Shown here piece after piece: positions 23,013-56,588 of a stretch of 64,000 bases of DNA. A program made the translations under genes and the position numbers. The notes under the pieces are model-generated. The model worked only from the letters and a program-made list of their open reading frames with translations, had not been told where the DNA came from and searched no databases. This DNA comes from Tubulanus polymorphus (taxonomy: Eukaryota > Nemertea > Palaeonemertea > Tubulaniformes > Tubulanidae): the NCBI RefSeq assembly GCF_964204645.1, contig NC_134029.1:18308450-18372449 (forward strand). Reading direction: 5' to 3'. Position 1 is the stretch's first letter. Each line of letters begins with the position of its first letter.

Positions 23013-26000
23013 TTACATTGAACGGCAAGGATTTTTCTTCCAGAGGAAATAGAGCTCGCGTTCGATTTCGCGCGTCAGCCGCATTCCAACGGTTTCATCG
23101 GTAAGCAATAATGTGTCGACGTTGTTCTTTTTCATTAGCTGATTTTCGTTGATGAAGAACGCGTACTTGTCATTCGGAGGCGCTACAAAATGTTAAGAAA
23201 TTTTTTGGAAAATGGAATACAAATTACCATCATGTACGAAGGAAATAAAGTACACATCTCAAGCTAATGTGTGTATGTATATAACCTCCTGTGTGGTTCA
23301 CTCAGGTCAACAGAGAAACCCCACTGGTGGTCCTATATCAGGGTGCCCAATTTTATCTGACTTGCTTTTCCCCTGACTTTTCCCCGACTATTCCCTGACA
23401 TGCATGTTGTTTTTCCTGGCTTGATCCACTAAGAATCCAATCAGCTAACACAGTCAAATATATAAGACATAGACGGAAACTTCAATTCTTCACACGATCG
23501 TAGCAATCTCAACAAATTTCCCTGACTTTTACCCGATTTTTAGCTTTTCTTACAAAATTCCCCGACCATTCCCCGATTTTCAGTTACCCGGTAAGTGGTC
23601 AACCTGTTTGTAAATATATAAACTATCTAACTGAGAATCCAGAATGGCAGTATCATAGTTCCCAGTTAACTGGATCAAAACGATAAGTTTGACTCTACAT
23701 AAAAGTTAATATTAGCCACAGATATATTCTTACCATCTGCCTCGAAAAAGTCGCAGTTGCACATACCATCCATCTCATATTTGACGTACTTATTGACAAT
23801 AACCTTTCCGCGGATGTTTGCACCAAATTTAGCCATCAATCGCACTCGCCCATCTCTCAGAATCATCGTCTTATAAACTACGAATGATAAACAACATCCT
23901 GAGTTATACAGCACAGATTTAACTGAACCATTCACTTTTCCGAATAATACTTTTACCGTACACGGTTTGGCACTGTATTCTGCCAAAGTTAGAAGTTATA
24001 TGGAAATCATAGGAAGTATTGATTAAATGAACTAATCAACAGATCATCAGAGCAAGATATTGGCTGAGCCGATAAAGTGAGCCTTATAAAATCAGGGGAC
24101 AACCCCAGAAAACGTGTGGGAATTGCATCCACGCTTTCTCTGGCTCTGAATTTTTCAAACCTCTCTGTAATAGAACTAGCAGAAGACTTGTATCATGCAC
24201 TGCCCTAGTGCTATACAAGGGCTTGAATCTTAATTGTACTGATGCACAACATACCTGATGCATGGTCGCAGTAAAGTGTCGTGATATTAACTGCTGCAGA
24301 ATCAACTGTCACACACACCGGACAGCCAAGTTTCTTATCCTTTAAAAACAGAAATATTTCTATCAGATGATCATTTTGCTAGTACTTGTAAGATATGGCC
24401 AAAAATGGAAATCGGTTTTAGACTGCGAGCTGATAGTGCCCTCGTACAAAACTTATAAGCCCAAGACCAAACTCGAATTGACTGAATTGGTATATATCCT
24501 GCCAGTATCAAACCTATACCACTGAAAATCGAGAATGAATACGAATGCAAGTACCTGGTTTTCTTCAACTGCTACTTTTTCAATCGTCTTTCTTCTAAAT
24601 CCTTTTGGAGCAGCCAAAGATTGAGGCTGAGCCGGCGCTGGCAGTCTAAGCTGCCCAGCGAATTCACCGGCGGAAAGTCGATCAAATTCCTCTTGGGTAA
24701 GGTGTGGCAAATCCTCCTTTGTTGCGGTCAATCTTTTGCAGCCAGGTAAAATTGAATAGTCTTGTATGACGTTCAGGTCTGAAATAATCACAATCAATAT
24801 GTCAACGTGTGTAGTTTAATTCAAAAGATTGACGAAATCACTGGAAAATTAATTAAATTAGTCGAACAAAGGATATTTCCTACCAGTTTCATAGTAGTCA
24901 TAAACTTTGACGTAACCGGGTTTAGCAAAATCGATATCCATATGTCGTTCAACATCAAATGATAAACACTTTCGCTGCGCGGTCAATTCGTTATAGTACA
25001 AGTAAACATAATTCTTGCTGACTTCGAACTTTTTGATCGCACCATCGGCGCGTTGAACGAGTTTCTGGATGGTTGCTTTCACGGGTATCCAACCAGATAC
25101 CATACGTACTTCGATAACGGCCATGTTGGAAGCGCCATCTGGTCGAGTGTATCTAAAAACAAGATACAATACAAGATTCAATGTCACAGGTAAGATGTTA
25201 CTAGAAGGCTTTTTACCTAATTAAAGAACTAGTGAAGTGGAGCCAGTTCTTAGTTAAATTTGAGTTGAAAATTAGTTAATTTCCAATATCTTGATCCTGA
25301 GTCCAATCTCAACCCTTAAGTTACCAATCTCACAATTTTGCGAGCACCGAACAAACATGTCGTGTCTTTTGCAACTTTTATGACATCATATTGATTGAAA
25401 TGGTTGGTTGGATGGTCAGTTGAATCTACATTTTATGTTCTTTTTTGTTAAATCGAAGTAAATTATTGGAAAAACATTTCAGTTCATTTTTGATTCTGAT
25501 TTACTATCATACCGGTACGGTATGTGATCTCCCGCACAGCAAGGGAGATCTTGGGAACTTAGATAACATACCCATGGGATACTCTTTCACGGGTTTTCAA
25601 GCACAGGCCCTCCACCAACTAAAGATGTCCCATGCCTGGTGGTGGGCACGGGTAGTAAATTTATAGCTGAAGTATATATAGCAACACTATAGCAAAAAGT
25701 AAGTAGTACCAGTGAGAAGAATTATTCCCTTAACTACTGCAAATTTTTTGCTGTATTGGTATAAGCCATTGAAGCAGAGGTGATATATTTTCGGGGGTCT
25801 ATCATGGCCCCATATTTCAACTAAATAGGCTTTGAATATTTCAAACATGTGCAAAAAATCGCTAAGAAATCACTGACTCAAAAACAAATAAATACTGTTA
25901 TCCTAGGCAGAGGAAGCGAATTCAGGTCACCCATGTCTGTGTAGGCAAGCACACTATACTAAACAGCTGGATGCTCACAGCGGGCAACTGTTTATTTTGA

Positions 26001-26440
26001 TCAGTGTGCGCAGTGACGTCACGTAGAGCGTCCCAACTTAAGTGGTCCAAAACTCTATCTGAAATTTAGCGTATCCGCAAAAATTTGATCCTAAAACATA
26101 CATATGACCAGTATCTTTCATTTGGTACCAAAAACTTGTTCAAGCATAGCGCACAGACCGCGTCAACCCCTAACAAAGTTTCGCCGTTTGTCTCTTATAG
26201 TATACGGTAGATTAATCCGGTAACCTTACTGTTAATTTATGACTTAGGAACTGGGTGATGATTAACAACAAAATTCTTTTAACAAAACTAGGGACGAGTT
26301 TAATTTTCTATCTTTACTTACGTAGTGCAAATGCCAATACTTCTTTTTTTACATTCACCTCGTTTCCTCGATACAATAGTGTTCAGCGTAAAAGCTGGAG
26401 TTAATTTTACTGATTTTTTGATATTGTATTTTACGCTAGC
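23013..26440 (-). CDS. TEP exons 29-34: receptor-binding MG8 and C-terminal netrin-like domain
   Basis: About residues 1401-1770. Exon 30 ends the MG8/receptor-binding domain with KPGYVKVYDYYET, the A2M-type ending. A proline/alanine-rich linker with a basic KGFRRK follows (exon 31). Exons 32-34 form a cysteine-bearing module: CPVC, LYCDHAS, KPCTVKV, MCNCDFF, then DTLLLTDETVGMRL, ending CRSM before TAA. Cysteine spacing and the CNC, short loop, beta-strand pattern fit an NTR/C345C fold as in C3, C4, C5 and netrins. No transmembrane segment or GPI signal is seen, so the protein should be soluble. Confidence 0.88.
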
Positions 26441-29400
26441 CTGAAAACGACAAAGGATACACACGCATAACAGAATGACGCTAATCCATGTAAGGTATGA
26501 TTAGTTTGGAATAAGGATTTGTACCTGAAGAAGAGCACATCCCGTTCCATTGGCAGAAATGACCAACAAATCTGGTACTTGGATTGTCCTCTTTTGCAAC
26601 AATAAACGGTTATCATCATTCACCGAGAAGGAGACGCCGGCTAAGTGTGAACCTTGAGCTGAAGTGTACACCAACGATTCTTTCTTGTGAGCTAGAGCCG
26701 CATAATCGGCAAGCGCTTGCAAGGCAACGATCGTATCCTGCGTAGACGTGAAACCTCCGGCTGAATTTCTCTGTCGCGCAATCCATTTCACAATCGGCAG
26801 AGCTTCAGCCACGCCGGCTGCTCCTTTGTGATTCAATAATGCCATCAACGCGTAAGATGTTAACTCCACATCGGCCGAAGCGGCTTGATGATGAGGCTTC
26901 CAGGACTCAGCGACTTCCATGATCGGTTGAGCGGGCCGCTGCCAATGGGTCATACCATCTGAAAAAGAATTTATAATGGCAGCATAATTCCCCATGGTGG
27001 GGTGAACAATTAATTGGATAATCCTGATTCTACATGAAGACATGCATCCTTTGACACTGCTAATTATTACTAACACTAGTATCAAGACCATGAGACAACT
27101 GATTCCATCTATGGACGAATGAACAAATGGATGGATGAAAAAAGTGAATGCAATAGCCCACCAAAACTCACCATCGGTATAGCAGACTCCACAAATTTTC
27201 TATATTTTACCTGAATTTATCGAAAGTGTTAATAACACAGCCATTAGATCCAACGCTTTTTTACTTGATGGATTGTACAAGGAGTAGGTATAAGCCATCA
27301 ATGCTACAAGATATGGGTCAGTCTGATCAATAGTTTGCGACTCCAAGCAACCCACAGCAGCTACCACAGCAGTTGACTGAAAGACAAATAATTTTTATGC
27401 ATCTCTTTTGCTTCATAAAGCTTTAACCGCATTTAACCTGTGAAATAGTACATATGTTAAAACAAATGTAAATGGTTGATAATATCTATTTCAAGACTGC
27501 AGATAATATGGAAATTAGATGTCTAGTAATACGTTATTTTATTCAATAATGGTCGATTCACCAATAAGCCGCTCTCAAGTCATTTCTTGGATGCTCAACT
27601 TGATGAAAACTTTATAGTCCCTATCGAGTAAGTTTACTATATTTTGATCTCTGAACTATACTACCATAGTTTTACTTTATTTACCTCTGAACCCAATCCA
27701 GCTTCCAACATAGCCATCAAAACAAATGTAGTCAATCCTACAGTTGATGAACCACCACTGAGACCACCTTTCATATCTTTATGCAAAACACGGCCAACCT
27801 TGAAATATAAAGCAGATATTCACAAATTGATATACTGATGATACTTCATATTGAACATCCATAAACTGGACCCGATTAGGCAAAACATTTTACATTAAAT
27901 ATCTTTTTCCCTATCATCGGGAAAAGATGGAAATGTCTGTTGAATTAAGCTTCTCAATTACTACAGTTGTTATATGAAAATGAAGCCTATGTCTAGAAAA
28001 CCAATAGTACAAGTACAAATGTTCAAGAGTGGTGAAACTTAATCAAACCTGAGGGAAACATCCATTTTCAAGTTGTTGCGATTTGAACCAGTCGATGCTC
28101 TTCTGCAGATGTTCATCGTCGATGAAAATATACGGTTTCGATTGGGCAAAAGATTTAACAACGAAAGCTGTCAACCACATACTACCAGACGGGTCACTAT
28201 TACCAAATGCACTGAACGAACCATCATTATGTCTGTAGTTTAATTCCCTTTGATATCCTGTAAGCAAGATTTAAGACCTAATTTTTTTTTTTTACAATGG
28301 GATACCAACAACGATAGAGTGACAAGCAAGGATTCAGTGATAATCCAGGATCGCTATTGGCACCGGGCTTACCGCGCTTCAATTTCCATCTACATTTCAA
28401 TGAGTGAAAAAGGGAATCTTATATCTATGCGATGACTTATTTGATGTTTAGATATGGCAACCTAAAAATCAAGTTCAAATTTCATTGAAAATGAACTGAT
28501 TCTTACTAACAAATAACCCAGGAAGAAAGACACTCTGAATATTTGGATGGATATATGAAAGCTGTGGGTACTGGAGTGTGTAATGGGTAGTGTAGTGTGA
28601 TCTGTGTGCATTTGTGGCCAGCACACAGATCACATTGTTCAATGGGGTTTGGTCCAGGACTCACGAGATTTTCAACAACACGGAAGTAACGTGTAATAAA
28701 TGATGACTTGAATTGCATGACTACCTACTATCCCTCATTATTGTTGGAAAACTAAACGTTCGGCACTGACTAAAAATTAGTAATAACATTTTAGAAATGG
28801 CCAGAATTTTAACTTAGGTTCTATCTCATTTTTATTTTACAATTGCGATTGGTATGATTTTTTTTAAACGGCCGTTAAGGCTTCATGTTTCGTCTGCAAT
28901 TCACTGCAAATAGTTACGCAACTACGCACATTTCAGTGTTTTTGGCAGCTGTACACTCAATCGGCACCGTTCGTGACTAGCTTCACTACGGAATTATCAT
29001 TAATTAACATCGCCATATCACATCATCAACTTATATTGTGCCTTAAAACCCTAACAGCCGAAATAATTGAAATGCACACACGACTTCTATCATTGAAAAT
29101 TGAGAGAGTGGCCATGTTTGTGTTTACTGCTTCGCGTAAATCCCGGAGTGGGGCCCATACGTCCAGTGTTTTGTTGCCCCATCTGGTGAGTGATGGTATC
29201 CTATTGGATAGATGCGTAGGAATTCTACTACATGTCTTAAGCTACGGTATATCTAAAACTGCAGACAAACCTCTTTTCATGTGTGCGAGGGCTTTTGCTT
29301 CAACATTCGGCGTTAGTTGTTTGGTAGCAGTGAGATATTGCAACACGAATATATTCGGAGTAAATGTGATCATGTTCTGTTCTCCACAGCCAACTGGAAC

Positions 29401-32400
29401 AGTTAGCAGTTTGTCCAATCCGGATAAAGTCGGTCCCATAAGATCACCTGGAGTCAGAGATAAATCAAGATCATGTTTAAGTTAACCTACCGCTACGTTA
29501 TATCCACTCCACAGTGGCTCTCCCTCTCCCTCCCTGATAAGCCCTTCTGGAATTAAAGCCCAACAAAATTGCGTGAAACACATCAATTACTACGGGTGGC
29601 CACTTTTATCTGACTTGCTTTTCCCTGACATGCACGTTGTTTTCCCTGATCTGCTAAGAATCCAATCTTTAATCACAGTCAAGTACATATGTTATTGACG
29701 GAAACTGTTTGATTTTCCATGCAATCTAGCAATTTCAACAAATTTCCCTGATTTTTAGCTTTTTTCTTTTTTTTACAAATTTCAATAATTTTTTTAAGAA
29801 AAGAAAATTCCCCGACTTTTCCATGATTTCCAAGTGAACAGTATTTAAGGTGTTTCCCAGAAAACACCTGTATAAAATTTCCATGCATACCAACAACTGA
29901 GAGTTGAGCTCGTGCAGAATCAGGGACGAGGTTTTCAGGCAGATTTAAATCGAATGTGGTAGAGTAACCGCGGTAATCTGCAATTCAAAAAGATCAGAAA
30001 ATTGATCATGAAGTGTGCCATAATTGAAAGATATTGAAAAGGAATCAAAGAATATGGTTACAACGTACCTGGACACACTAATGAGCTCAGAGAATATTCC
30101 TCCTCAATTCCTTCCGCCTGAAATACAGACAATCATTCAAGTTCAAACATCAGTTTTAAAGAACAGTCAAAACCAATGCTCAGTTGCACCACTTATTCAT
30201 ATTTATAGGTTAAAAGCAGTAACTATTCTTCGAAGAAAATCTAATCATCTAGAAATGTAGCTACTAGATCCATGCCTCGAATGTGATGGTCCACGGGCCG
30301 GGGTCAAATTCATGATCCAAGTTTAACTCACTGGCTAGCCCATTGCTGAAAGTTAAAAATGGTCTATTAAGCCGAGCCCAGACGACTTACCTCAACCAGT
30401 AGTTGCCTAACGACAGCATCAGATGCCCCTTCACCGGTAAGTGTCTGAGTTAAAATGATATTTCCACAAACCAATGATTTATCCGATGAATAAGCCTACA
30501 ACAATAAGAACCTTGTGCTTGAAGCTAAATTCCTTGATATTTCTCTAATGCTGAGGTTACCATTGATAGTTTTATGTATGATCTTTCAAAGGATGCATAC
30601 GTATGACATGTATGCTGATTTAGATTAGCTTGAAAGGAAATTGTACAATTTCTATTTAAGTAGGTTTTCATCGCTAGTTGCCTACTTACATAGACAGTTA
30701 TATTAACTTTTCCGAGAGTTTTTGGAATGACATAGAATGTATGCGACTTCTGCTCATTCGCACACACGCACACGGCAGCGTTATTGGTTCCATTTATTGT
30801 ATAATCATCCGAGTGTCTCAACGTCAAATCAATCTGAAACACGAACAAAATAGGCACGACTGAAAGAAATGACATATAAAGAATTCACTGAAATTTACAA
30901 GAATACAATTATTGCACGGCTCAAAATGCTATGGCTTCTCGAAGAAAGAATGAGCTCCAAAATAAGTTTTTTGATGTAAGGGGTTAATAATTGACTACCA
31001 GGTATCTAGGGAGATAGTTGGAAATTTAATCAACTGCGAGTCAAATGTGCTAGGTTTAACTGCATCTACAGAAATGGATGGCGGGAGTGATAACAGGTCG
31101 TCCCCACACGAACCGGATTAGCAAATTCAACAGTAGGGAAATTCAAACATTTCGTCTGGGACACACGTCGTAATCCGAGTGACAAGCGCAGTCAACTGTA
31201 TATATGAACCATCTGAAATGTTCAAATTTTTGAGTCACGTGCCAGTATTGGAAATCCTATTGACATTATTTTCGTATCATACTTACAACCAGGCACTGCG
31301 TTAAGTAGTTAAACACGGTCACTAAAACCGGCACCTTCTCGCCACGAATGACTGAGTAGGGAAGAGTAAATGACACAAAGAATGGCTGAAATCCTTTGAC
31401 GCGAGTGACTTCCGAGAGTCCCATTCCCATCTGTAAATTCGTGCACAAACTTCTTCCAACCCATTCTGTAATTGTGTGCGGTAATCGTTTCTCGAGATTC
31501 AATTCACCAGTAGGCCTAAAATTTGGAAAAATATTCATTAATGATATTGAGAGTACTAACTTTAACCCCAGGGAAAACTCATGAATTTCTTAATAGCGTG
31601 TTTGCGGTACTAGGTTCTGGGCTCAATGGTGACTGTTTACTCATTGCCTGCCAAACATGTACTGGTACGTTCGATATTTCCCATCCCTTGCCCGCCAAAA
31701 CCGTACTGGTACGATTGGCTTGTTTCTTAACTCAAACGATGGCGAATTCATCACACAACACCAGGTAGTTTAATGCCTTTTACTACTAGAACAGATTATC
31801 ACCAGTCAAACGATGCAGTGTGTTAGTTATATCATATATTGATATGGGGTCTGAAAACGCATGAATGGGCATATTTTCTGCAAAATAACCCCCCCCCCCC
31901 GCAATGATATATCAGTGCGCGAGCACCTGTGAAGATAAAGATGGGGATAACACTTCGTTGCCGGGTAAAACCGATATAGACAATTCACTGACAGGTAGGC
32001 TCTTCATGTGCCTCAAGACTTTCCATAATTCGTAACGATTATGGGAACCTAAATACAACAGGCTATGATGGTCATAGCTAGGATCCTGGGTACAGACAAA
32101 TGACGCGTTACATGCATCGGATTATCAGTTCTATATGATACATAATTATGGGACTATCATGGTAGTAGAGATACTACAAGTGTTGTTTGGTGAATGGCTA
32201 GCTACGATATGGCAGGCAGTGTCAAGTTAAGCTGAAAGTAAGAGAACTGTTTTCATAGTTACCCGACAGTTTCAAGGTCGAACAACCACGTTTCGGGGAA
32301 GTATGACCTAATTTCACTTGTTGCTTGTCTTTCTTTTCTCCTACGCTGAACAGAATGATCTTGTTTAATAACTGCACCCCCGGAGGCCATCGGAACTGGC

Positions 32401-35400
32401 CCTAGTCAAATCAAGAGAAAATTGAGTCTGAAGTTATAAGCATATTTATAAGAAGCCAAATATCGCAAGACATTCTAGTATGATGCTCCAGACTATGATC
32501 ACGTGGGATATGTATTTTTAGCAAGAAAATGCATGGCCCAGGATTTATCCCAGATGATTCATGTCCTGAGACATTTCATTTGTTGTGAATTTCAAAACAT
32601 ACATTTTATCATCAAAATTTCTTTTAAATAGTTTCACAAGATTATTGTTGTATTATCATGAAAATGGTAGAACTTGTTAACAGAGTGAATAAGCTTGAGG
32701 TTGTGATGATAGATATTGAGGGTTACCATGCTGACTAGAATATCATTCAAAATCAGTTCAAAAAGTCTTATTTCACCAGAAGGATTATCTGAATATGAAG
32801 CAGATGACCAACACCAAAAGCCCTGTTCTATGTTTGAGACTTAAGCCTCAATCGCGAAGAGATGATTCGGCTGGGTAAACAGGCACCGGCCCATTTGGCA
32901 GCCCAGCGAACAACCAAATTTGATCCGGGGGAAAAACGTTTGTGTGTTCATGGTTTCAAGATAGAATTAAACCACCAGTAAGCTAATTCAGATCCTCTGT
33001 AGCAAATTAAAACTTATCTTAAGATTTAATTCCAATTAACTGTTTCAAACCTCTAAGTCAAACATAGAACACGGCTGCAGGTAACCATTTCGTGAAGCTT
33101 TATTTTTATTGAAAATCTATCGAATTAATCCACTAATAACACCGTGATCAGCTATTGAATCACGAATAACGAGGCGATTCATTTCAATAACATAAATCAG
33201 CTTCGCAAAACAGACCACCGATGATTTCTATTTGATATCCTAACTCGTCAATCGCAGAAAAGATACAGGAATCAAATGGTATTATCAGTGATAGTTATGA
33301 TTGATGCATTTGTGAAAGTACCTTGACCACCATCATCATCAAATTCGACTGCATCTGCGATTCTCCAGTAAGCCTCTCTCACTATACCACATGGACGAGT
33401 TTCAATATCAAAATCGCTCATGACCAATGAACCAACATCCTAATATAGTGATTTACGTTAGCAGTGCATATGTTAAGCAAATGATTATGTTACATGCCAT
33501 GGACACATGTTCATGCAAAATATCAAAAGGAAAGTTTTCGAACAGGAAGAAACGAAATCGACATTTCTCAGAATTATTTCACATGCATGAACATGATCCA
33601 AAAGCAAGTTATGTCTTTTCAGCCAGCCTTCAGGGTTTCAATTCGAACATGTGGCATGGAAAAAATTGTGACAAGTAAGAATTCTATAAAGAAGATCTCA
33701 ACATCTCTTTTAAGCCACCCTGGACACTTGCGAATTTTGTCCCCGCAATGCGTTGTGGCAAGGCGTGCCATTTCGGTGGTACATCACAGACATTTAGATG
33801 CTTATGATGCAATGATGCGTGCCGAATATTCGAACATTTTAAAATTCTCTCTACAACATGGCACACCCCCTCGCACCCTTCACACTCCTCACGCTCATTC
33901 CTGATGACTTTAAGTAATGGCACGCTGAAGTGCGTGCCATTGCGGGGACAAAATTAGTGTAAGTGTCGACGTCGCTTTACTCATTCTTACTATTCCAGTG
34001 TCGGACTAGATATAGCGGTATGATATATTTTGACCAAATTTCTGAAATTTGAAGCCCTAATAAATGGCCTTCATGATTAAACATTTAACTGACCGAGCTT
34101 TACTTTAGCTTTCAGCAATTGTCGGGTACGTATCTTTCATTTACAGGCCGATGCTAAATGATACCCTTATCAAACCCTTGAACATGAAAGTAGGTAGCTT
34201 TCCAACAAGAAATAGTATTGCCGAAAAAGGAGGCAACCTTATGAAATCATTTGAATTCCAATCAGCAGAACGCCAACAATTTTTCTGCCAAAACATTTTT
34301 GTCAACGGTATGAATTTTATTTTATTCTTTTTAGTCAGCATAGTTGATTTCACTGACCTAAACGTTAATTGACCCCACAGGGTTGCAGTCAAAAAGATGA
34401 CAAATGAATTCATTTGAAAATGGATTAACACAGATGTTCTATGACGGCCAGAGAAGAACCAGTTTTGTTCCCAGCAGTGAGGTAGGTTCGTAAGGGCCAC
34501 GCCAAATAAATAGTGAAATCAAATTGCTAATTGAAATGAGGAAGAGGGAAAAGTCATGCCTATCTCAAGATTAAAGCTGATACTGAACTTCCAGGTTTAC
34601 CATGATTTGTGAAATATGGAAGAAAGCTAAAATCAATATCGCAGCGCCTTGTTTCAAGTGAAAAATCACTTAATATCAATATGCCTACATCCTGAGTAAC
34701 AAAAAACATGACAATTAAACAGTTTTAGACACAGTTATGTTGATACGCGTATTACTAACTTCTAATCAAAATTCTATGTAAAATGGAGGTCTGTCTGCTT
34801 CTGTTGTCAATAAGAGCTTTGCGATGAATGTTGCTGTTATATGATACAGATAGTCAGATCTGGTGAAAGACCCACTAATACCCTGAAAGCTGGCCGACTA
34901 ATAGACACGGGCACATTGGCGAATTATTACCTGCAGGACCTGGCACACTGGCCCTCGAATACGCTACGACATAAAGAACTTGTTTACAAGGCCTCGTTTC
35001 AATTTCCAAGTCGGTCGAAACTACGAAGCCTAAATCCTAGTATAAGTAGAGGAGAAATCACGATGATTGAATTTCTAGCCGGAAACAATTCAAACCCTTC
35101 TGGTGAGTGAGCTTGGACCAATAATATCACAAAGTTAATGCATCATGATAACCATGCAGCCCAGGCCTATCAAACTACCAAACCATTCAATATCCTTCAA
35201 CAACGAAAAATAATTACCACGTCGGCCCTGTTTACGTCTCAGTTTTGTTTTCCTATATGCAATAGAAATTGCATGGCATGGTCTGGTTTCGATCTGTAGA
35301 TTGCTTATAACTGTGACACCTACATCCTAGCAAAATTTACGGTTAACTCTTTCAACTCTTCTAAACATTGAACCACTCAATATACAGTACAATATGAAGA

Positions 35401-38400
35401 GTAACTGCTAGACTTCAAATACTGACAAACGTTAAATCAGGGAGACCAATGAGCTTGAATAATTCAAAGTCTGAACTATGTATCTTCGACGTGGTTTTGT
35501 TATATCGAGATAACATTCGGTCATTTAGTCATCAAGCAAACCTCTTATGTACCTTCTATTCTCAAATTAGAAGTAGTGGATGTTTTTATACAAGCGACTA
35601 GCACTGACATTAATGAGTTATTGCTAAATTTGTTAATTACAAGTTTCGGCCACAATTCTGTCAATTTATATCCAAACAGCTAAACTACTGAAATCATTTG
35701 AAATGCCTTGACTGAAGTTCTGAATAAACAGCAAACAAGTTAATCTATCGCAAGTAGCAATAGCGCTTATACCACGAGTTTGCAGAGCCAATCATTTATT
35801 CAAAAGTATACCGTCCTAACTAAGGAAGAATAAATATCAGTGTTTTGTTATATAAGTTAAACTAAAATGCCAAAATTCTTCTTTATAGAAAATTCTTCCC
35901 AATCATTTGGTTATCAAATCGACTCATTCAATTCATTTCTACATACAGGTTGGTCAAGGTGATTACAAATTCAGCCAGGAAGGTTAGTTGAATCAGTGAT
36001 TCATTAAGTATTGATACATGATATTAGTGAAAAAGATAAATCAAACTGACTAAAAATCCACAGCATTTGTGGCATATTACCATCTTCCAAAGACGACATA
36101 AGAAACACTACTCTGGGTTCTTTGAAATCGCAAGGTCTCGTTTCAATGTCAAAATCAGTTAATATCGCAAAACTGACATCCTATTCGGGAATACATTTTT
36201 AACAACAAATAGAAACATTTCATTTCACGCAAACAGCAGTAATACATCAAACAAACATTCAATCTCTACTGAATTCAAGCCATATTGATTGAAATTATTT
36301 ACCTTGAACGCTTTGATTGAGTCGTAATACGAACTAGAACGGCCAGACCAAGGAAATCTAACATCACGTCGCTGTCGGTTGTCACCAGGTGGCCCAGCGG
36401 GCATAGGAGGCCCACGAGGATCGTGTCGAATATCTAAAACATTTTAAAAGCAAATTTCACCGAATTTCTACCAAACATATCAGGCATGAATAAGGTGTCA
36501 GACCATCCTTACCATCATCAGCATTTCTGCAGTGATCTCCACCAAATTCAAACGTTTCTGGACGCAGTGAAAATGAATCGACAAGTGAAACCACCTAAAA
36601 TGACCATAGATATATCAAAAATGTCAATATTCATAACTATATAGTCTTGATTCTGTTATAGCCGGTATTCATTCTAATCAACTAACTTTAGCCGGAGTTA
36701 ACTGCTTGTTGGCTTTTAGAAGGTGTACGCTCTTATCGACAACCCCAACACTGCACAATGATCCTGGAGCAGCATTCAGCTTCAGATTAACAGGTGCTCC
36801 AGGAAGCGCTTTTTCCTTCTCAAAATTCAATGAAACCTACCAATACAATAAAAGTGACGTACATGAAAATGGTGAACATATATGTGAAGTGATATACACC
36901 AGTGAACAATATGCCTTGACATTTAATGAAATTTGACATTTACCTTGTTTCGGAAACAACTCGCTACTGCAAATTCTTGACTATCAGCGATAACTTCTCC
37001 ATCGGGCCGTACACTATAAACTAACAGACGAACACCTCCGGACAGTTCTGGTTTGATGAACAACTGAATTGGTGAAAAAAAAAAAAACAACATATAATCA
37101 CTCCATTCACTTCCAGCTGACAGATAGATCTGCAGGGTTTGTAGTAGTAGTAAGGCCGAAGAAAAAGTCAGCAACTATAAGTATTTTAGTAGAAGTAAGC
37201 ACTTGATAAAGCACTTTCATAAAGCATAAGTGATACTTTATCCTTATCTACAACATAAATTGTTGAAACAAATAACAGTCATGGACAACGTTTATACTGG
37301 AATTTTTGAAATTTCTGTGACCATTTTGAAATATCGGTGAAATTTAAGCACTTTCAAAGGCCTTATTAAATTTTTTTTCAAAAGTAAGTGTAAGCACTTT
37401 GAAGCACTTTGGAGACATGCTATGAACCCTGTAAAGCCCAGTGCCCACAGCAAGAAAACCCTAGAAACAATTTTGTGCAAATCTTTTTATTCATTTCGAT
37501 GTCTAGTTCACCTGCTATTGTAACACACGGCGAGTGCAACTAGCCAACAGTGAGTAACTTACATTGATCTTGAAATGGGCAATATGTTTTTGGGTCCTTA
37601 GTTCCTCTCCTTCTTCCTCATTTTCATCGATAATTTCTGTTACTTCATCCGATTCATCTGATTCTTTAAAATGAAATACAAATATGTCATAAAATAATTG
37701 ATACAGCCTCCCATATACTGAATTCATAGTAATCTTATACTTTTTGCATATGTGCATGAATAATCAGGCCCATAACGCGACTGATTATATGGGCCGTTTC
37801 ATTTTCCGAAAAATACGGCCTTTTTGGTGAAACTTCTTGAAATGGCGCTGGAAGGTAAAAGTGTTGCGTCGTGACGGCAAATAAGCCTGCAATTGAAGGA
37901 CTCCTATGGAGTTTTATGCCAGTACTAAATACCTTGTAGGCCTAAGACCGGAAGTAGAGAGGACAAGCCTGGGATTTTATCTAATTCGAGCAAAAGCGGA
38001 GATTTTGGCTGGTTTGTCGAAAAACCCTTTAGTTCGCCCGGAGGACTGATAATCAACTGAGGTATAACTTTTTACCTCCAACTGCTGGTGCTAGTTCTGG
38101 TTCAGACGCTGTTTCATCAAGTAGATCTCGCTTTCGTCTGCTTGACAATGCTACTTTCACGTCATAGTCATGAATCTTGAAGTAATGCCCAATGCGGCCT
38201 TTTTCAACTACTTCACCGCGTTTTGTCATTGCCTACAAAAAAAACCCAGCAACTATCGAATCACTCGATCCAAAACTACAAACATTAAATGGCAAATCCA
38301 ACAAATGTCATCAAATACCTGATAATAAAATGTAGTGGATGAATCGCTGTCAGTGGTATATGTAACATTGATATCATAAGCTTTGTTACATTCCATTGTG

Positions 38401-41400
38401 TTTTCCTGATTAATTATCTGAACGGCGTAACCCGATTTCGAGTACCAATTGCGAATGTGCACCGAATTGTACGAAGAACGCATGCGATGCCTGCTATAGT
38501 CTGTGGAGCTTGGTTCTTGAAATTTAACCTAAAACAGTAACATTCAGAAAAATATTTATCCGAGCGCAGAAAAATGGCAAATCCAGAACAATGAGAATTG
38601 ATACAATTCATGTCTCCCGAATGCATATAAACCAATATGGTTTCTTTCGGAAGAGGATTCAAACCCCTCCATGAATCAAATAATTCTCTGTTAACTCTCA
38701 AAGCTGTAACAATTAAGTATAACACCGAAATATGACACAAAAGTGTTTTTGTCATTTGAGATGTTTTAGAAAATGAAGTCGAACCTCGGCAGAAAGTATC
38801 GAAATGTCAGACTATGTCTGCTCATCCAAAAATCCCTGCCTCCAAATTCAGTAAGGCTGAACAAAAATATTAATCAATAACACATTGGTATAAGAAACCA
38901 TTTGACAATTACCATTATATTCAGTCGTTTGACATGTTCACCTATCTTTGGCAGATATACTGAATAAACACCCTCTTCATTTGTCAAGATTTGCTTTTCT
39001 TGTTCAAGTTCCTTTGAGCCGTCGATATTCAGGGTTATTTCTTGGAAGGCTGCCGGAGTACCGTCTGGTCTTCTTAGTACACCCTACAAAGAATTATCAT
39101 TCACTTTAATTACTCCATACATTCCAACAGCAAATGTACTAACTAAATATGAATACTCCTACATGAAATGATTTAAGGGGTTCGTTCCCTTAACTCAGTG
39201 AATAAGACATACACCTTAAATATTCCTCCTTATTCTGTTAATTGTTCCCAAGTCGGTGAACTTGATAAACCCTGTTATTCCGTTATCATGGTTATAGATA
39301 TTCCCTGTCCAGGTTTAGCACCTTAACATGAACATCCTCCGACCGGAATCTCACCAAAAACTATATGATCTACTCACTTTTCCCATATAAGGCAGTCCAG
39401 GTTTGAAGAAATCTGGCATGCCAGTACTGTCGAATTTAAATCGTTGGGTTTCAAGTGGTGAGCTTGAACTACCATTCAGAATAACGCCTAAATTAGTGAT
39501 AAAAATTTTCATACAATCACTGGGAATTAAGAAAGAAACCATTAACATGTATGGATGATAGAGTAACTGACCCGTGGCGGTCTCTTTTACTTTGGCAAAA
39601 ACGTGTAGCTTCGTATTCCAGACACTCATGGTAGAATCGTTAAGTCCAAGTCGATCAGCTGATAAACTGAACTCAGTGCAGCGGTTTATCTGCGAGCAAT
39701 TGAATGATTGTAGTGAAACAAATATATCAGGAACAAATCTTGCATCTTAAGATATAGACGAAAGATTTCTACATTATCATACGATCAAAGATTTTTCAAT
39801 CAAACGCACCGCTAAGGTACCATCAAAATATTCATATCCATCAAACTAATGGTCACAATGCATTCACAAAATATGCATATTCAGTGGCAGTGATGAATCT
39901 AAGTATTGGCAACATAATATTGTTCAGAACAATCATTTAGCAGCTTTGATAGTCAAAAACTGAGCAGCAAGATTTAATGATCTATTATAGGCATGCTGAC
40001 CTTTTCCTTAAGGGTAACTGGTGGCCTTTGCCGATGAGCAAACCGGTTACCCGACTTGATTTGCAATGTAGCCTCTATATCCCCGATGACAGGTTTTCCG
40101 TAAGTATACCTGAAAAACAGACGAGAAACAATCATTTTCATAAATATTTTTTTAGCCCGGTTTCATGTGCAATCAGTCGTTGTGATACCTACAGATAATA
40201 TTAGGGCACTGGACACATAATCTACTAGCATTTATTACCCATAATAACAAGACCAACAAAATAAGGGACAGGTTATAATCAAAACAGGACAATATAATCT
40301 GCAATATGGCTCCAGAAAAAAGAGAATGTGGCACTTCCAGAAGATTTTGAGATGTAGAAACTACTGGACTCAACAAATGCTGGTATAAGGTCCCAGTGGA
40401 AGAAGAAGCTTGTCCGATTGGGAAAGAATGAAACAAAAGTTAAGTCCAAGCAGAAGAAACTGTGATACATTTACGGTGATTGAAATTGTACAACTACTTA
40501 GACTGACTATCAACACTGATTATTTTTCCTGCACAAATCCAACATTTTGGAATTGATTGACAAAATTTTGACAGAACAATGGGTGACTTTACCCACAAGA
40601 AGCAAATTACGTACATTCCTCCCCTCCCCCCACCCACAAGTTTGAAAATATGGATGCATCTTGGTGGATTCTGCATTTTCACGGTGTACTTAACAATAAT
40701 ACTTTCGTGGAGCTCAGCACCTTTGTGTAGACACAATGTTGAGTTTAATCAACTGTGCAAACGTTTATCTAAACTAGAAAAGTAGAGCTGTCAAATGGAT
40801 AACTACAAGTGGTGAATGTATTCGCGAATTGTTTACTCCTTATATTGAAATAGAACAAACAGGTTCCAAGAATAATTATTGAGGAAATAGGTTAAATGAT
40901 AAAAAGGTCAGTTTTTCATGATTGAACCTACCTTCATATGTAATTCTCTGATAAGATAAACCTGTCTGCACAGTGATATCTGAATAAATAAGACTTTACA
41001 AAGAATACTTACTTCGCACAAACTTGTACTTTAACTGTTTTGTCGACCACATAGAAATAGGGTGGGCCATTAACATCAACTTGAAATTTCGGTAGAACTG
41101 AAAACAAAAGAATAATGGACTAATAATCGTCGAAACAATCGAACCAAAAAGCAGAGAAGATTTAAAATTAATAATCAATTTTCTGATTAGGGCGTGAAGT
41201 ACTAAATGAGTTATAGAAGATGTAGTAAACAACATAATAGTCGACAATTTAAAATCAATCAGCTTACCATATTCTCTGACTTCAAATTGATGGCTTTCAC
41301 TTATCGTACCAGATTTCAAGTGAATACTCCAGGTACCGAGGATTGGCTCATCCGATAAAGGCAACTCAAAGTCGCCGAGACCATTTTCAGTTTTAGCATT

Positions 41401-43490
41401 TCTCCATTGAGCCACGCGATTATCTAACGAGTCTTTCACGTATACTTCTTCCAACTGAAATATCACCAAATAACTTTGATGTACAAAATATACAAATGAA
41501 TAAGAGTTTCGTTCTCATATCCAATTAGTAGCATATGATCTTATTTCAATTCCATACCCTACATTCAAATTGAAATCAAAATTCGAGTGATAGAACACGA
41601 AAATTGAAACATGAACAAAAATTATCATTATCATTATTTAGCATATTCGGTGCCTTACATAAAAGCCACTTACATAAAACATTGATACATAATGAAAGTG
41701 CAGCTAACCATAAACTTGAAAAAAAGATAGGTTTTAGGAGTTGATCTAAAATGGTTGTTATTTTCATTATTTCTTAAAAGACGATTAACTAAAACTTTTC
41801 AAAGCGCTGGTCCACATACTTTCAAAGATCTGACGCCATAGTTAGATTATGTAAAAGGACACATTAAAAGATTTTGCCCCGACAAACAAAGTGACATTCA
41901 GTTGCTAAATGTAGAGCAGGGGATTGTTTCACGGTTCGACCTTGTGCATCATCATGAATAATGAAACATTAACTCATTCTTTGAAATGAACTACCCCGGG
42001 ACTCAGGAGGATATAACAGAAAGGTTTCTTACAGTTTGAACGAGCGGCATCAATTTAGGAGTAACTGTCAGCGTCCGAAATTTAACTACATGAAAGAATA
42101 AAATTTACCCATTAAACCATTTGCATCTTATCATTTCAACGAAGTACGTCAAAAGAGAGTGGCTCAAGACGGCCTACCTGTTTGTCCCGGTTTATAAATA
42201 GGTTTATCCGTCTCGATGAACGTCAAGAAATTCGGCGGTATCAGACTTTTAAGAAATACAGTATCGTTGAATTTATAACCGACGGTAGCATCGACTGTTG
42301 AACCAACAACCGCTAGTTTATAGCTAATGTACGAAGACAGAGACTCCATTATCGGCACCTTAAAGTGCACACAGTGATTAAGAGCATCTGAAATGAAGAA
42401 AACATTAATTTAAGATGTACACAGGTGTCTATTTCTATACAGAAACATTTCCTTAATATATTATTTTATTGATTACAAATCAGCTGGAAAATCAATTTCT
42501 AAACACTCAATCTAATGCAAGTGAAGATTCATGATACCGACCTTTCCTTAAAAGGTAAGACTTAGAAATCACATGAGGCTCCGTACGCTGGTTAGGCGGA
42601 ATCATCGACAAAGAGACGTTTACATTCACATCGCAGTCAATATCGTGGAATGTGAAACACAGACGTTCGTCCTTTCCCATTGTAAATGTATTCGGTGCAG
42701 TCATCAGAAAGCCCCTACAACAAAAAATTTTCAAGAAAATGAAAAAACATGTTGGGCTCAATCCGTGAAATGTAGTTCGACTGTAATAAAAGTGCCCTAG
42801 AAACGTAATAGGATACCGAGTTCTTCCTAGATAAAGTTTTAGGTGCCCCTTCCGCTGAGGTGCAATTAAGTTAAACAGTTAAGGTTATAGTTAAGGTGAG
42901 GATATTACCATTACATCTCAACTGCGATCATTCCCAGTATCTACCAGTACTTGTGTAGGTACCACCACCAACCATCAACAAATGAATGAATGATTTTAAG
43001 CCAAGGGCTAGGCTAGCTAGATGCCTGGATTGGAGTTGGTTACCTTGCAGTTTTGCAGTAAGAATTTATAAAAGTCTAAAAGAAGTAATCTTGGTCTCAA
43101 AAGGCTAAAAAATTTAGTCACGATAACGACAAAGTGAACTAAAAATTAGTAAAAGTAAATTGAGGACATTTATTCAATTCAATTCAATTCAATTCAAAAT
43201 TATTTGCATAGAGTTAGATGAGGTAACAAATATAAAATCTACGCAGGCCTAGCAAAGCCAGAAAGGCCGCTTAATACTAGCACCCATGCAAAAAACAAAA
43301 CAAAGTATAGTACCGTAACAAAAATATACACAAATCATACAAATAGATTAGATACCCGGTACACCGACACTTCCGGGTTCTCTTTTACTAAATAAGTAAA
43401 GTTTACTTGCCGTTTTTCCACGGTCTCCGATGTTGTCAGCGCACATGGCACAATACAGAACACAGCCAGCAGCCCGAAGATACGTAACAT
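23013..43490 (-). CDS. Thioester-containing protein (A2M/complement superfamily), 34 exons plus alternative bait exons
   Basis: Secreted thioester protein that should trap proteases and/or attach covalently to surfaces through its thioester. Exons, 5' to 3': 43490-43411, 42714-42542, 42387-42178, 42085-42033, 41454-41268, 41097-41013, 40109-40001, 39689-39572, 39487-39378, 39083-38913, 38528-38319, 38232-38076, 37663-37563, 37063-36944, 36836-36687, 36594-36513, 36433-36303, one of cassettes A-E, 32401-32263, 31515-31287, 30833-30690, 30495-30391, 30117-30069, 29977-29891, 29447-29271, 28257-28049, 27798-27685, 27376-27211, 26958-26525, 26440-26322, 25152-24884, 24778-24555, 24339-24255, 23979-23734, 23182-23013. 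Counting one cassette as its own exon this is 35 in the mRNA. All phases match with no internal stop. With cassette A the protein is 1,770 residues. Order: signal peptide, MG1-MG6, bait, MG7, CUB, thioester domain, receptor-binding MG8, netrin-like domain. Every intron is GT-AG except intron 1 (GC-AG). The family is clear; the exact clade (A2M, TEP or complement) needs a tree. Confidence 0.96.
23327..23600. repeat. Dispersed repeat in the last TEP intron (TTTTATCTGACTTGCTTTTC type)
   Basis: Shares TTTTATCTGACTTGCTTTTC, CCCTGACATGCAYGTTGTTTT and AAGAATCCAATC with 29592-29850. Pyrimidine-rich with repeated CCCCGAYTTTTC. Confidence 0.6.
26525..31515 (-). CDS. TEP exons 19-28: MG7, CUB and thioester domain
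   Basis: About residues 829-1400. Exon 19 holds MG7 (LPYSVIRGEKVPV). Exons 21-23 bridge into the CUB (DAVVRQLLVEAEG). Exon 24 has VPVGCGEQNM; the thioester joins Cys1054 and Gln1057 in isoform A. Exon 25 has SGSMWLTAFVVKSFAQ, conserved in the alpha-alpha barrel. Exon 26 has GRVLHKDMKGG, where His1168 lies 114 residues after the thioester cysteine. C3 has its catalytic His at the equivalent place, in a similar context, which favours transfer to hydroxyl groups; human A2M has Asn there. Exon 28 completes the thioester domain and re-enters the CUB. Confidence 0.95.
28519..29165 (+). repeat. Dispersed repeat, copy 1 (TEP intron between exons 24 and 25)
   Basis: Matches the 56.6-57.3 kb repeat over its whole length in opposite orientation, ending at ACGTCCAGTG. 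Here there are no tRNA halves on either side. It fills most of the roughly 1-kb TEP intron 28258-29270. Confidence 0.8.
29592..29850. repeat. Dispersed repeat in the TEP intron between exons 23 and 24
   Basis: Second copy of the 23327-23600 repeat in the same orientation, slightly shorter. Confidence 0.6.
32263..32401 (-). CDS. TEP constant exon 18: end of bait and MG6 return
   Basis: 139 nt, phase 1 to 2; spliced after whichever cassette is chosen. It begins GPVPMASGGAV, has a dense basic run QRRRKER (residues 801-807 in isoform A) and then the highly conserved IRSYFPETWLFDLETVG that follows the bait in A2M proteins and the anaphylatoxin in C3. There is no anaphylatoxin six-cysteine pattern between exon 17 and this exon. 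The gene is therefore bait-type rather than C3-type at this point. Confidence 0.93.
32846..32958 (+). mobile_element. Decayed, internally deleted MITE copy in a TEP intron
   Basis: Starts AGCCTCAATCGCGAAGAGATG and ends AAAAACGTTTGTGTGTTCATG. Only the two ends remain. It lies between bait exon E and constant exon 18. Confidence 0.5.
33322..33439 (-). CDS. TEP alternative bait exon E (acidic tail)
   Basis: Fifth and longest cassette; 118 nt, phase 0 to 1, AG acceptor and GTACTT donor. It encodes DVGSLVMSDFDIETRPC and then GIVREAYWRIADAVEF plus an acidic DDDGGQ end. It is the last cassette before constant exon 18, about 0.9 kb away. Splice sites and frame are intact. Confidence 0.87.
33721..33971. 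mobile_element. TIR element within the bait-exon cluster
   Basis: GACACTTGCGAATTTTGTCC at the left and an inverted GGGGACAAAATTAGTG end at the right; about 250 bp, no coding. It lies between cassettes D and E. Confidence 0.6.
34601..34691 (-). CDS. TEP alternative bait exon D
   Basis: Fourth and shortest cassette; 91 nt, phase 0 to 1, CAG acceptor and GTAAAC donor. It encodes DVGILILSDFSLETRRC followed by DIDFSFLPYFTNH. The common motif is slightly changed (LETRRC instead of IETRPC). The tail is aromatic and has no lysine or arginine after the cysteine, so it may suit chymotrypsin- or elastase-like proteases. That specificity is inference. Confidence 0.86.
34931..35036 (-). CDS. TEP alternative bait exon C
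   Basis: Third cassette; 106 nt, phase 0 to 1, AG acceptor and GTAATA donor. It encodes DLGFVVSTDLEIETRPC followed by KQVLYVVAYSRASVPGPA. The tail is small-residue and hydrophobic-rich with single basic sites. Only 181 bases separate it from exon B, the shortest gap in the cluster. Confidence 0.87.
35218..35326 (-). CDS. TEP alternative bait exon B (basic tail)
   Basis: Second cassette; 109 nt, phase 0 to 1, AG acceptor and GTAATT donor. It opens DVGVTVISNLQIETRPC and ends HAISIAYRKTKLRRKQGRR. The tail is strongly basic with several dibasic sites, unlike A and E. If used as bait it would offer trypsin-like or furin-like cleavage sites. Homology to the other cassettes is in the N-terminal half only. 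Confidence 0.88.
36081..36180 (-). CDS. TEP alternative bait exon A
   Basis: First cassette exon after exon 17; 100 nt, phase 0 to 1, AG acceptor and GTAATA donor. It encodes 33 residues plus a shared glycine codon. It starts DVSFAILTDFDIETRPC, the motif shared by all five cassettes, and continues with a variant tail DFKEPRVVFLMSSLED. The tail is mildly acidic and hydrophobic with one KEPR stretch. Its position matches the A2M bait region, where target proteases cut. It is either alternative with B-E or, less likely, part of a combination that restores frame. Confidence 0.88.
36303..38232 (-). CDS. TEP exons 12-17: MG5 with acidic insert, MG6 and start of bait
   Basis: About residues 503-749. 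Exon 12 ends in a basic site RRKR at residues 534-537. It is followed by an acidic linker through exon 13, including ESDESDEV and ENEEEGEE, before MG5 resumes with HIAHFKIN. MG5 then shows the conserved VRPDGEVIADS and CFRNK. Exon 15 carries SLCSVGVVDKSVHLL, the conserved MG6 segment. Exon 17 is proline/glycine-rich, has a classical furin-type RQRR at 725-728, and ends phase 0 with AFK immediately before the cassette cluster. The RRKR and acidic stretch are absent from the usual MG5 core and look like a surface-loop insertion. Confidence 0.92.
38319..43490 (-). CDS. TEP exons 1-11: signal peptide and MG1 to early MG5
   Basis: N-terminal part of the thioester protein, about residues 1-502. Residues 1-19 are a hydrophobic signal peptide beginning MLRIFGLLAVF, followed by TSETVEKRGFLMTAPNTF, the usual start of MG1. 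IETDKPIYKPGQT near residues 143-156 opens MG2. LPKFQVDVNGPPY with YTYGKPVIG (about 235-270) marks MG3. FKPGLPYMGK at about 365-375 opens MG4. These are the most conserved N-terminal signatures of A2M/TEP proteins and fall at the usual spacing. The start was chosen because this ATG gives the signal peptide and lies about 45-55 bases downstream of a TATA box. Confidence 0.93.
43140..43335 (-). mobile_element. Non-LTR element tail with GAATT repeats, TEP intron 1
   Basis: On the minus strand an AT-rich 3' tail ends in about five copies of GAATT (43174-43195), as at the 3' ends of LINEs/SINEs with pentanucleotide tails. No coding part. Confidence 0.45.
43401..43412 (-). other. GC-AG donor of TEP intron 1
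   Basis: Exon 1 ends AAACG followed by GCAAGTAAAC. Using the GC donor gives phase 2 and joins to exon 2 as EKRGFLMTAP, the family's conserved MG1 start. The GT four bases further on gives phase 0 and puts exon 2 out of frame. The GCAAGT match is the usual form of functional GC donors. Confidence 0.7.
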
Positions 43491-47436: not shown

Positions 47437-48923
47437 ATGACGATGATGAAAGCACTTCCGGATTGGTTACGCGAGGAGTTACGTTTCTTCTTCGTGTCGT
47501 CATGGCCGATTCTTGTTGTTCCTGTTTTAAGCGAATTGCCTCTTTTGATGTGTAATATAATGGTCGCTCAAACCAATTTAATTTCGCAAGCCGCCGTGTC
47601 TCTGACAGACACGTTTTTTGTGCTCCTTTTACTCATTGGGTATGGGTATGGCGATCGGTGTAGAGGGACTATTCTCGCAAGTTTTCGGCGCCAAAAACTT
47701 TCGTTATTTACGCTTGTTGTTACAGAGAGGGTTGTTAATACTGATTTGTAGTGGTTTATTGTTTCTTCCACTAAATTTCACTTCCGACAAAATATTTAAA
47801 CTTTTCGGACAAAATGTAACCGTCGCTGAAGAGGCTGGAAGGATGCTGATGGTGATGTCATCCAATAACATTCTTGTGCTCGCAAATGACATTTTACGCG
47901 TTTTTTAATGTCTCAGGGTGTTGTTTTACCTGTTGTCATTATATCAATATTCAACAACGTTTTCGCCGCAGTAATCTGTTATGTCACGATTATTGCACTA
48001 CGTTTGGCCAGTCTAGGGGTAGCCATCTCTCTCCTTGTATTTTTTGGTCTCAGTGCAGTTTGCATGGGTATTGCAACTTCTCTGATTAATAAAGACACCA
48101 TGGCTATATACAGAATCAATATGGATATATTTAAGAATCTATGGGAGGTCGCTAGTATGGCTCTCGGTTCAACAGTATCAATATTGTGTATTTCTATAGC
48201 CATAACAATCGGTATGTTTTTGACCGGTACTTTTGGAGTGGCTGAACTTGTATCATTGAGCATTTCGTTGCAAGTATATATGTTGACCTCAATATATTAT
48301 GGGGCATAGCGGAAGCGGGTAGTATGAGAATTGGTTTCCTGTTATCATCCAGGGACGGCCAGACAGCCAAAAGAGCTTTGTTCTTTTATCAAGGCATTTC
48401 GATGTTGGTCGCTGTAATTATCGGTGTATTAATTTGTTCCCTTCACGCTCTTTTAGCTCGGGGATTTGCTAGCGATAGTTTAGTCGAAGCTAAACTGAAA
48501 GTTATGTACATTGGAGCAACTTTGCCCTTATTTGCTGTAGATATTATATTTAATGCCGCTATTCAAGGTTGCGCTAAAATAGCCATCATTACGACAACGT
48601 GTTTCGTGACTTTATCAATAGGAACATCATTAGGTTTGATTCTACTATATTTTACTCGGTTAGGTGCGCTGAGTATAATAATAGGTTACCAGAGTTCATG
48701 TGTTTTAAATGCGCTCATATTCGTTCCGTACGCCATCTTTGTTTTAGATTGGGATGAACAATCTAAACTAGCGCGTCACAGAACTACAGACGATCTTAAG
48801 TTAATCCAAGACGGAACCGAAAATGGAGAATTGGATTACAGTACGTTTGAGTTAACACCCAGCGCCACCTTGATTCAAAATTCATCATCAAAAACAGAAA
48901 ATGGTTCAGAAACACTAAAATAA
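47437..48923 (+). pseudogene. MATE-family (SLC47-like) multidrug/organic-cation transporter, intronless, three frameshifts
   Basis: About 495 codons that read as a 12-helix MATE transporter once three single-base slips are allowed for. The start LPDWLREELRFFF is the typical MATE N-terminus. GLFSQVFGAKN and MSQGVVLPVV are family motifs in order, and EAGSMRIGFLL precedes the second half. The slips lie in a T run near 47611 (one base too many), a T run near 47903 (one too few) and a G run near 48301 (one too few). There is no other stop. The TM7 motif that in human MATE1 reads CMEWWAYE is here CISIAITI, so both glutamates are lost. No introns are seen. It is either a young pseudogene or a gene hit by homopolymer base-calling errors. 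Confidence 0.82.
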
Positions 48924-55015: not shown

Positions 55016-56588
55016 CTCTCGAATCCCGACGGGTATAGTACCGATGTTAATGACACTGGGTTAGATCTCGACTCATTTACGAACCCGAAATATATGTTGA
55101 GATCGATCTAACTGATCCTAGCTTATGCACGTCAGGACTATAAAACTGGCCCCCGAAGCGGCACCGTTGTGCTGATTACTGGTAGCAGTCTATACGAAGT
55201 GTATTATATATATACGACAAACCCACAATATCAACGAACAACATATAATGTGGGTTTTTATGTATATTCATACACGTGATGTAGAAAGATTCCATTTATA
55301 CTGCGTTGGTTTCCTATGTACTGTTTAGTATATACAGACTGATACTCTAATTACACGAAACAAAAATTATATGGGACATTAACACGATAGACCTAGTCTA
55401 CGATTACTGAAATCGTCTCTATTTAGAGTCCCAACTGTTATTACCGTTGTTACATCAGTCGTTTCGATGTCAGCATACTTCTAGTTCTCCAACTGAGAGC
55501 TTGTTCTGAACTCTGCCTTAACATTCAAAATCTGGGCCTATTCATACAAATCTATCATCCTGGTGTCAAATTACGATTCACTACTTCCATGAAAGATGAT
55601 TTATGATACGGAATTTAGTAATATTTATGACCATCATATTTTGTGAAAATGATTTATGATAGGGACGTTTAGTTGACTTTCAACGTTAACTTGAAGGTGA
55701 AATTCAGGCTTGCTCACCACATACCGCTATCAATTTGGCTAAACTGCATCTAAGTTAGATTCTCGTTTGAGAAAACGCTGGAAGAATAAACTGTCGAAGG
55801 CGTAGCCATTGACGATAGACGGATGCAATTCAAAGCCATTATTTGAAGCTTACAATATTCTTTGTTTGCATCAAGTGAAAACTCAATTTTCAGAAATCTA
55901 ACACAATATACTCAGATTTTGTGAAAGTTTATTATAACTGAATTGAATATAGATATTCGTTGTATAAGAATTGATTGTAAATGCTGAAATATAGTATAGC
56001 AAAAAATCTGAACAGGGTGGACAATGTTTGCAGAATGTCAACTCTCTCTAGTGAGGATGATATCACAATGAATTACGTATCTGTTAGTTCAACTCATCAT
56101 TCCCAGTACACGCACGCATTGATTCATTTTAGTTATTTTCCCATTTTTCTGTGCAATATAAACAACGAAACTTGATGGATAATTTTAATCGTCCGAAGTG
56201 ATATGTTTTTTGGAGATGTAAAAATGCGATTTACTGAATGTCACTGTAACCAGTCCACAGCAAGAAATCCATCTTGATATCGATATTCGACTGAATTAGA
56301 TTGTGCTTTATTTCAGCAGATTCTTATGTCGAATCTACTTTCAAATTCTGGTATCACAAAACAGCTGTGTTTGAATATTGATATTGTCAGTAAATTTATT
56401 CAAAAATTAATCGGTTGACAGGGAATGACTATGGAATAAAAGCCACTGGCCCGTGGGGCAAGCATATCTGAAATTTTGCTTGCCCCCTAAAATTCTGCCC
56501 TAATGAGAATATACTTTTCATTTTGAATGTTATTTGGATAGTAATTGAGTGATCACGGCAAATATGTTTAAAAAAATCTAAGAAGCCA
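55016..56588. other. Upstream region of the GTPase gene, no gene seen
   Basis: AT-rich unique sequence; the GTPase promoter should lie in its first few hundred bases. No clear TATA box in the expected window. Confidence 0.5.

Follow-up and report, generated by a model that had tools for sequence, protein, structure and literature searches.

Five tandem candidate alternative exons for the first bait half in an alpha-2-macroglobulin gene of the nemertean Tubulanus polymorphus

Introduction

What use does a single gene have for five copies of one small internal exon? The question is raised by an alpha-2-macroglobulin (A2M) gene of Tubulanus polymorphus (Nemertea, Palaeonemertea), located on the minus strand of a 64-kb stretch of genomic DNA (the whole of which was analysed and is called the window hereafter). 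Between two of its constant exons, at positions 33322-36180, lie five homologous exons that we have termed cassettes, in the transcript order E, D, C, B, A. The explanation that best accounts for all of the observations, to which we assign a probability of roughly 86%, is an A2M gene with five tandem bait-half exons that are used singly.

In the proposed mechanism, the exon that encodes the conserved pre-bait stretch, the cysteine at its end and the initial half of the bait is present in five tandem copies, one of which would be used at a time, each transcript running from constant exon 17 via one cassette to constant exon 18. As each cassette is entered in phase 0 and left in phase 1, joining two of them or skipping all of them would shift the frame into stop codons. 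The isoforms would thus offer different first bait halves to proteases, followed by a common, arginine-rich half, and cleavage of the bait would lead to collapse and thioester reaction, as is normal for A2M.

Results and Discussion

Five homologous exons between two constant exons

The cassettes and the constant exons on either side are listed below; P0001 is the NCBI model for the gene ("murinoglobulin-1-like isoform X2", Tubulanus polymorphus, 1739 aa).

Constant exon preceding the array ("exon 17"), 36303..36433, minus strand: ends ...DSIKAFK, phase 0; contains an RQRR motif; same residues in P0001
Cassette E, 36081..36180, minus strand: DVSFAILTDFDIETRPC followed by DFKEPRVVFLMSSLED; 100 nt, tag|GATG..GATG|gtaat, phase 0 to 1
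Cassette D, 35218..35326, minus strand: DVGVTVISNLQIETRPC followed by HAISIAYRKTKLRRKQGRR; 109 nt, phase 0 to 1; exact match with P0001
Cassette C, 34931..35036, minus strand: DLGFVVSTDLEIETRPC followed by KQVLYVVAYSRASVPGPA; 106 nt, phase 0 to 1
Cassette B, 34601..34691, minus strand: DVGILILSDFSLETRRC followed by DIDFSFLPYFTNH; 91 nt, phase 0 to 1
Cassette A, 33322..33439, minus strand: DVGSLVMSDFDIETRPC followed by GIVREAYWRIADAVEFDDDGGQ; 118 nt, phase 0 to 1
Constant exon following the array ("exon 18"), 32263..32401, minus strand: PVPMASGGAVIKQDHSVQRRRKERQATSEIR (second bait half), then SYFPETWLFDLETV; aligned to the YFPETW of A2ML1/A2M

All five cassettes have the same splice form (...AG|GAT...G|GTA..., phase 0 in, phase 1 out) and a length of 1 modulo 3. 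In-frame stop codons and broken splice sites are absent from all five, and each cassette on its own gives an open protein; the splice sites and frame are therefore as intact as a preliminary description of this locus had stated. Each cassette starts with a block of 17 residues that ends in ETR(P/R)C and continues with unrelated residues. The motif that had been quoted for this block, DxGxxxxxDxxIETRPC, is too strict: there is a common block, but only D1, E13, T14, R15 and C17 are invariant across the five cassettes, since E has DVS for DxG, D has N for D, and B has SLETRRC for IETRPC.

The tails that follow the cysteine are indeed 13-22 residues long and differ in charge, as described before. 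The tail is acidic in A (22 residues, net charge -4), aromatic in B (13 residues, -2, with four aromatics and no K/R), mixed in C (18 residues, +2), strongly basic in D (19 residues, +8) and hydrophobic in the middle in E (16 residues, -2).

The homology amongst the cassettes is also apparent from profile searches with the block. With a profile from the five 17-residue blocks, run over the window and two 20-kb paralogue loci, the cassettes scored 38.7-42.3 bits, against 10.8 bits for the runner-up, which is the bait exon of the paralogue. Leave-one-out profiles recovered all five cassettes at 23.0-33.8 bits, with non-cassette stretches at 12.1 bits or lower. A profile of other species, devoid of Tubulanus sequence and consisting of 54 distinct blocks from homologues (extracted with a regular expression matching 78 of 118 proteins), ranked the five cassettes first (28.6-19.0 bits) and the paralogue exon sixth (18.3 bits), followed by a stretch at 9.2 bits. 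Coordinates, phases and profile scores agree with the initial claim that five homologous exons share one pair of flanking constant exons. The block profiles revealed no sixth cassette in the 64-kb window. A genome-wide search with one cassette matched only that cassette and missed its four neighbours, so that its sensitivity does not suffice to rule out arrays elsewhere, while the pattern GAAACNNGNCCNTG yielded 1647 matches, too unspecific to be of use.

The gene is of the A2M type and the cassettes would vary its bait

The extent of the gene and the position of its thioester exon are as follows.

Whole alpha-2-macroglobulin gene, 23013..43490, minus strand: from terminal P0001 residues (tblastn), the last open-frame end and Pfam domains
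Thioester exon, 29271..29447, minus strand: VPVGCGEQNM, motif also in P0001; TED_complement

The start codon of this multi-exon gene is at 43490 and its other end at about 23013. In a tblastn search of the window with P0001, 957 of the 1739 residues were found at 95% identity or more, exon by exon; most of the exons beyond the reach of tblastn were placed by hand. P0001 is a better gene model than the hand-built one, in which exons 9 and 10 are misdrawn, several exons are missing, and the frame is kept at 24 of the 28 listed junctions and lost at four. Two homology queries, of 1510 aa and 400 aa, were derived from this imperfect model, the longer one without the codons split by introns.

P0001 contains, in this order, the Pfam families MG2, MG3, MG4, A2M_BRD, A2M, TED and A2M_recep, all seven above their cut-off and TED_complement with an E value of 3e-96; the thioester motif GCGEQN is present in both gene and P0001. 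The eighth Pfam match, SVA, is below its cut-off, and an anaphylatoxin family, our criterion for complement C3, is not amongst the eight. The relatives of known structure closest to the 400-aa piece are A2ML1 (199.2 bits) and A2M (187.5), ahead of CD109 (114.7), TEP1 (51.5) and C5 (50.1). Because of this ranking by bit scores, we place the gene in the A2M subfamily inside the thioester-protein (TEP) superfamily, and not with the insect TEPs. The name TEP given to it earlier is thus correct for the superfamily, but its type is A2M.

The position of the bait can be approached from the homologues. We used the best 120 of 5779 matches, several isoforms per species among them; 114 of the 120 have an FPETW-like motif at least 150 residues into the sequence and gave 108 distinct rows, the conservation of FPETW being built in, as the motif was a selection criterion. 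In these rows, conservation extends up to the cysteine (G 77%, T 69%, R 73%, P 77%, C 98%). The 50 columns after it have many gaps, and half is reached there by a single proline (84%) and a single valine (55%) only; then comes R at 99%. In the A2ML1 and A2M sequences of known structure, the bait lies in this same stretch, given the limits generally assigned to it in human A2M. Because the homologues lose conservation there, and because of the alignment with A2ML1 and A2M, the variable part of the cassettes lies in the predicted bait region.

The cassette supplies 13-22 residues of this bait and constant exon 18 the rest, including QRRRKERQ. The "interchangeable bait regions" of the preliminary description therefore apply to the upstream half, which is swapped, but not to the arginine-rich second half, which is constant. 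Since the latter is common to all isoforms, possible cleavage sites would be shared by all of them. The protein is presumably a protease trap, and it is plausible that its isoforms differ in the proteases they prefer.

Alternatively, the cassettes could alter another function, such as how the protein, cleaved or intact, binds to microbial surfaces; this has been argued for insect and snail TEPs. For scallop TEP, PMC7016707 links splicing at this site with expression that depends on the pathogen, and for snails with a TEP2 that binds parasite larvae. The gene described here is, however, of the A2M type and not of the insect-TEP or CD109 type, and its variable residues fall on the A2M bait, so we consider such a role conceivable but unlikely.

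A reading frame that favours one cassette per transcript

Our test of the reading frame covered single cassettes, ordered pairs and the skipping of all five. Each of the 10 ordered pairs has a premature stop, always inside the second cassette, and skipping the whole array leads to a stop in exon 19; two-cassette inclusion and complete skipping are thereby ruled out by frame. As far as these combinations go, the reading frame alone selects for one cassette per transcript.

NCBI isoform X2 (P0001) includes cassette D at exactly the predicted splice sites. The NCBI cluster that it represents has five member sequences, which fits five isoforms, and we expect all five cassettes to be expressed.

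Several observations weigh against this interpretation. The NCBI isoform models are predictions, of which X2 was seen, and the five members of its cluster need not correspond to one cassette each. E and A have acceptors with a low pyrimidine content (fractions of 0.41 and 0.47), below those of the 26 other exons measured (0.53-0.82). Those of D, C and B are not low (0.59, 0.82 and 0.76), and as a group the cassette acceptors are not significantly weaker than those of the 26 other exons of the gene (one-sided p 0.22). Cassette B departs from the block at a conserved position (RRC). The Arg and Lys residues in the constant half would blunt the differences between isoforms toward trypsin-like proteases. 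Lastly, pairing between docking and selector RNA sequences, as known from Dscam, was not found in this one species when 20-nt windows were compared with 180-nt intron ends in four arrangements (9, 16, 30 and 9 of 40 shuffles were equally good).

It could thus be argued that only one or two cassettes are used (e.g., D), and that the others are relics of duplication which have kept their splice sites by chance. The presence of D alone in the annotated isoform and the pyrimidine-poor acceptors of A and E would suit this view. Yet the splice sites, the open frame and the length of 1 modulo 3 are preserved in five out of five cassettes, whereas at their level of block identity (57-69%) decay would be expected already, and the NCBI cluster counts five sequences. 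Moreover, the differences in the conserved block are distributed 58/28/102 over codon positions 1/2/3 (10 cassette pairs with 170 codon pairs, which are not independent), the third position having the most differences in each of the 10 pairs; such an excess is what coding constraint would leave behind. We therefore judge it quite improbable that the other cassettes are relics. An artefact of gene model or assembly, such as collapsed copies of several genes, was considered because arrays can misassemble, but it has a negligible chance of being true, given that no point in its favour was found, that all five cassettes occupy 3.9 kb of a single gene, between two of its exons and without long repeated flanking DNA, and that they are too divergent for assembly duplicates.

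Origin of the array

The asymmetric phase of the cassettes probably preceded the array because it is shared by a paralogue with a single exon at this site. The paralogue, on the same contig (C5:307256-307379), has one exon at the bait site (124 nt, 1 modulo 3, phase 0 to 1) and was identified by matching residues as "pregnancy zone protein-like" (P0014). A third gene, on C7, has one bait-site exon with the same upstream phase and a weak match (7.1 bits, E 2.1); its downstream intron measures 3 kb, and a match this weak cannot clear further cassettes there. A search with TED revealed a fourth locus on C3. With an asymmetric phase older than the array, duplicates of the bait exon would have been mutually exclusive by frame from the outset.

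The duplications look old, because the longest direct repeat shared among the cassette introns is 21 nt and block identity is down to 57-69%. Long flanking repeats were not found among these introns, and recent duplication is ruled out on these grounds.

The introns flanking cassette A contain two inverted-repeat elements, the first at 33733-33955 (18-nt arms, 100% complementary) and the second at 32819-33076 (19-nt arms, 95%). The arm of the first has one more exact copy in the genome (C8), and the element one partial match of 74% (C9); the arm of the second occurs nowhere else in the genome. With so few other copies they were rejected as common transposons, although the DNA search, which skips very common words, is by itself no proof of rarity. 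They may be remnants of old transposons or else local hairpins. An intron of a paralogous A2M gene (G000:C5, about 305276-305791; L014) holds a minisatellite, one frame of which reads (HVPPSPGIEPDGIVKLC)n.

Comparison with other animals

Exons at the bait site that are mutually exclusive or alternative in another way have been reported for snail TEP2 (12), CD109 and A2M (3), scallop TEP (6), fly Tep2 (5), shrimp A2M-2 (6) and ticks (7, 4) (PMC7016707, PMC5489563, PMC5438962, PMC7962413). With these reports, splice-made bait diversity as such is already known in invertebrate immunity; the A2M of a nemertean would now join these animals, as a compact case of five exons with a clear frame lock.

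The tick proteins also belong to the A2M subfamily and have alternative sequence within the bait, with seven variants of IrAM in Ixodes ricinus and four of TAM in Ornithodoros moubata according to a review (PMC5438962). In the 10 listed isoforms of Dermacentor andersoni (X4-X8) and D. albipictus (X1, X3-X6), sequences of one species are identical outside one mid-bait piece of at most 27 residues. The DxG...ETRPC block is thus constant in Dermacentor, whereas in Tubulanus polymorphus the swapped exon carries both the block and the start of the bait.

BgTEP2 of Biomphalaria glabrata resembles our array in having 12 tandem, mutually exclusive exons of variable length and composition at the central site, but these are conserved C-terminally and the Tubulanus polymorphus cassettes N-terminally (PMC7016707). 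Biomphalaria BgCD109 and BgA2M (3 variants) have alternatives at the same central site, those of BgA2M using one or two exons (PMC7016707). The six mutually exclusive exons of CfTEP in Chlamys farreri and the five exon-5 isoforms of Drosophila Tep2 are similar in site and copy number, but both proteins are TEPs and not A2Ms (PMC7016707, PMC5489563).

Mytilus A2Ms are likewise present as predicted, isoform-named proteins with several members per cluster and a variable bait, and one Mytilus coruscus prediction has three bait+FPETWLW segments in series. This suggests that in mussels the alternative exons sit on the 3′ side of this region and extend over FPETW, in contrast to the 5′ bait half that varies in the nemertean.

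For nemerteans, no report of A2M splicing was found among the papers listed on nemertean macroglobulin or on the Tubulanus polymorphus genome; the passages of one paper on Lineus ruber deal with C3 and domain names, and the Lineus longissimus homologue is represented by one sequence only, among the matches listed. Bait exons of TEPs are not described in the accessible part of a Daphnia paper (PMC2685406), nor is bait splicing in that of PMC12939704.

The piece of the bait that varies seems to differ among ticks, mussels and Tubulanus polymorphus, which is possibly new. Whether a diverse bait evolved separately in three animal lineages or more (5′ half in the nemertean, mid-bait in ticks, FPETW side in mussels), with a ready-made frame lock in the nemertean that made duplicates exclusive from the start, is in our opinion evenly balanced. 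If it did, selection would have repeatedly diversified exactly those residues that proteases cut.

Other features of the gene and its surroundings

The first exon of the A2M gene (43411-43490) has an apparent non-canonical GC donor (AACG|GCAAGT), and the expected residues are present in P0001. The exon at 38076-38232, with SSRRKRDLLDE, is followed by an acidic exon at about 37560-37664 (ESDESDEVTEIIDENEEEGEE). Together they form an inserted, furin-like, acidic linker; Lineus longissimus P0010 has one of different sequence, and the three annelid homologues aligned have none. Further basic motifs are RQRR in exon 17 and SRKR in exon 29, where the chain may be split.

Past the receptor-binding domain, positions 23013-24350 encode a cysteine-containing C-terminal extension that aligns in Lineus, Arenicola and Capitella (the Capitella homologue being named NTR domain-containing by one source), whereas no counterpart aligned in Owenia or the paralogue; the extension gave no Pfam match here. 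The neighbouring genes encode a dynamin-family GTPase, mitofusin-like by eye (54272-55060, minus strand), and a MatE-family transporter (47606-48923, plus strand), one piece of which is above and one below the Pfam cut-off.

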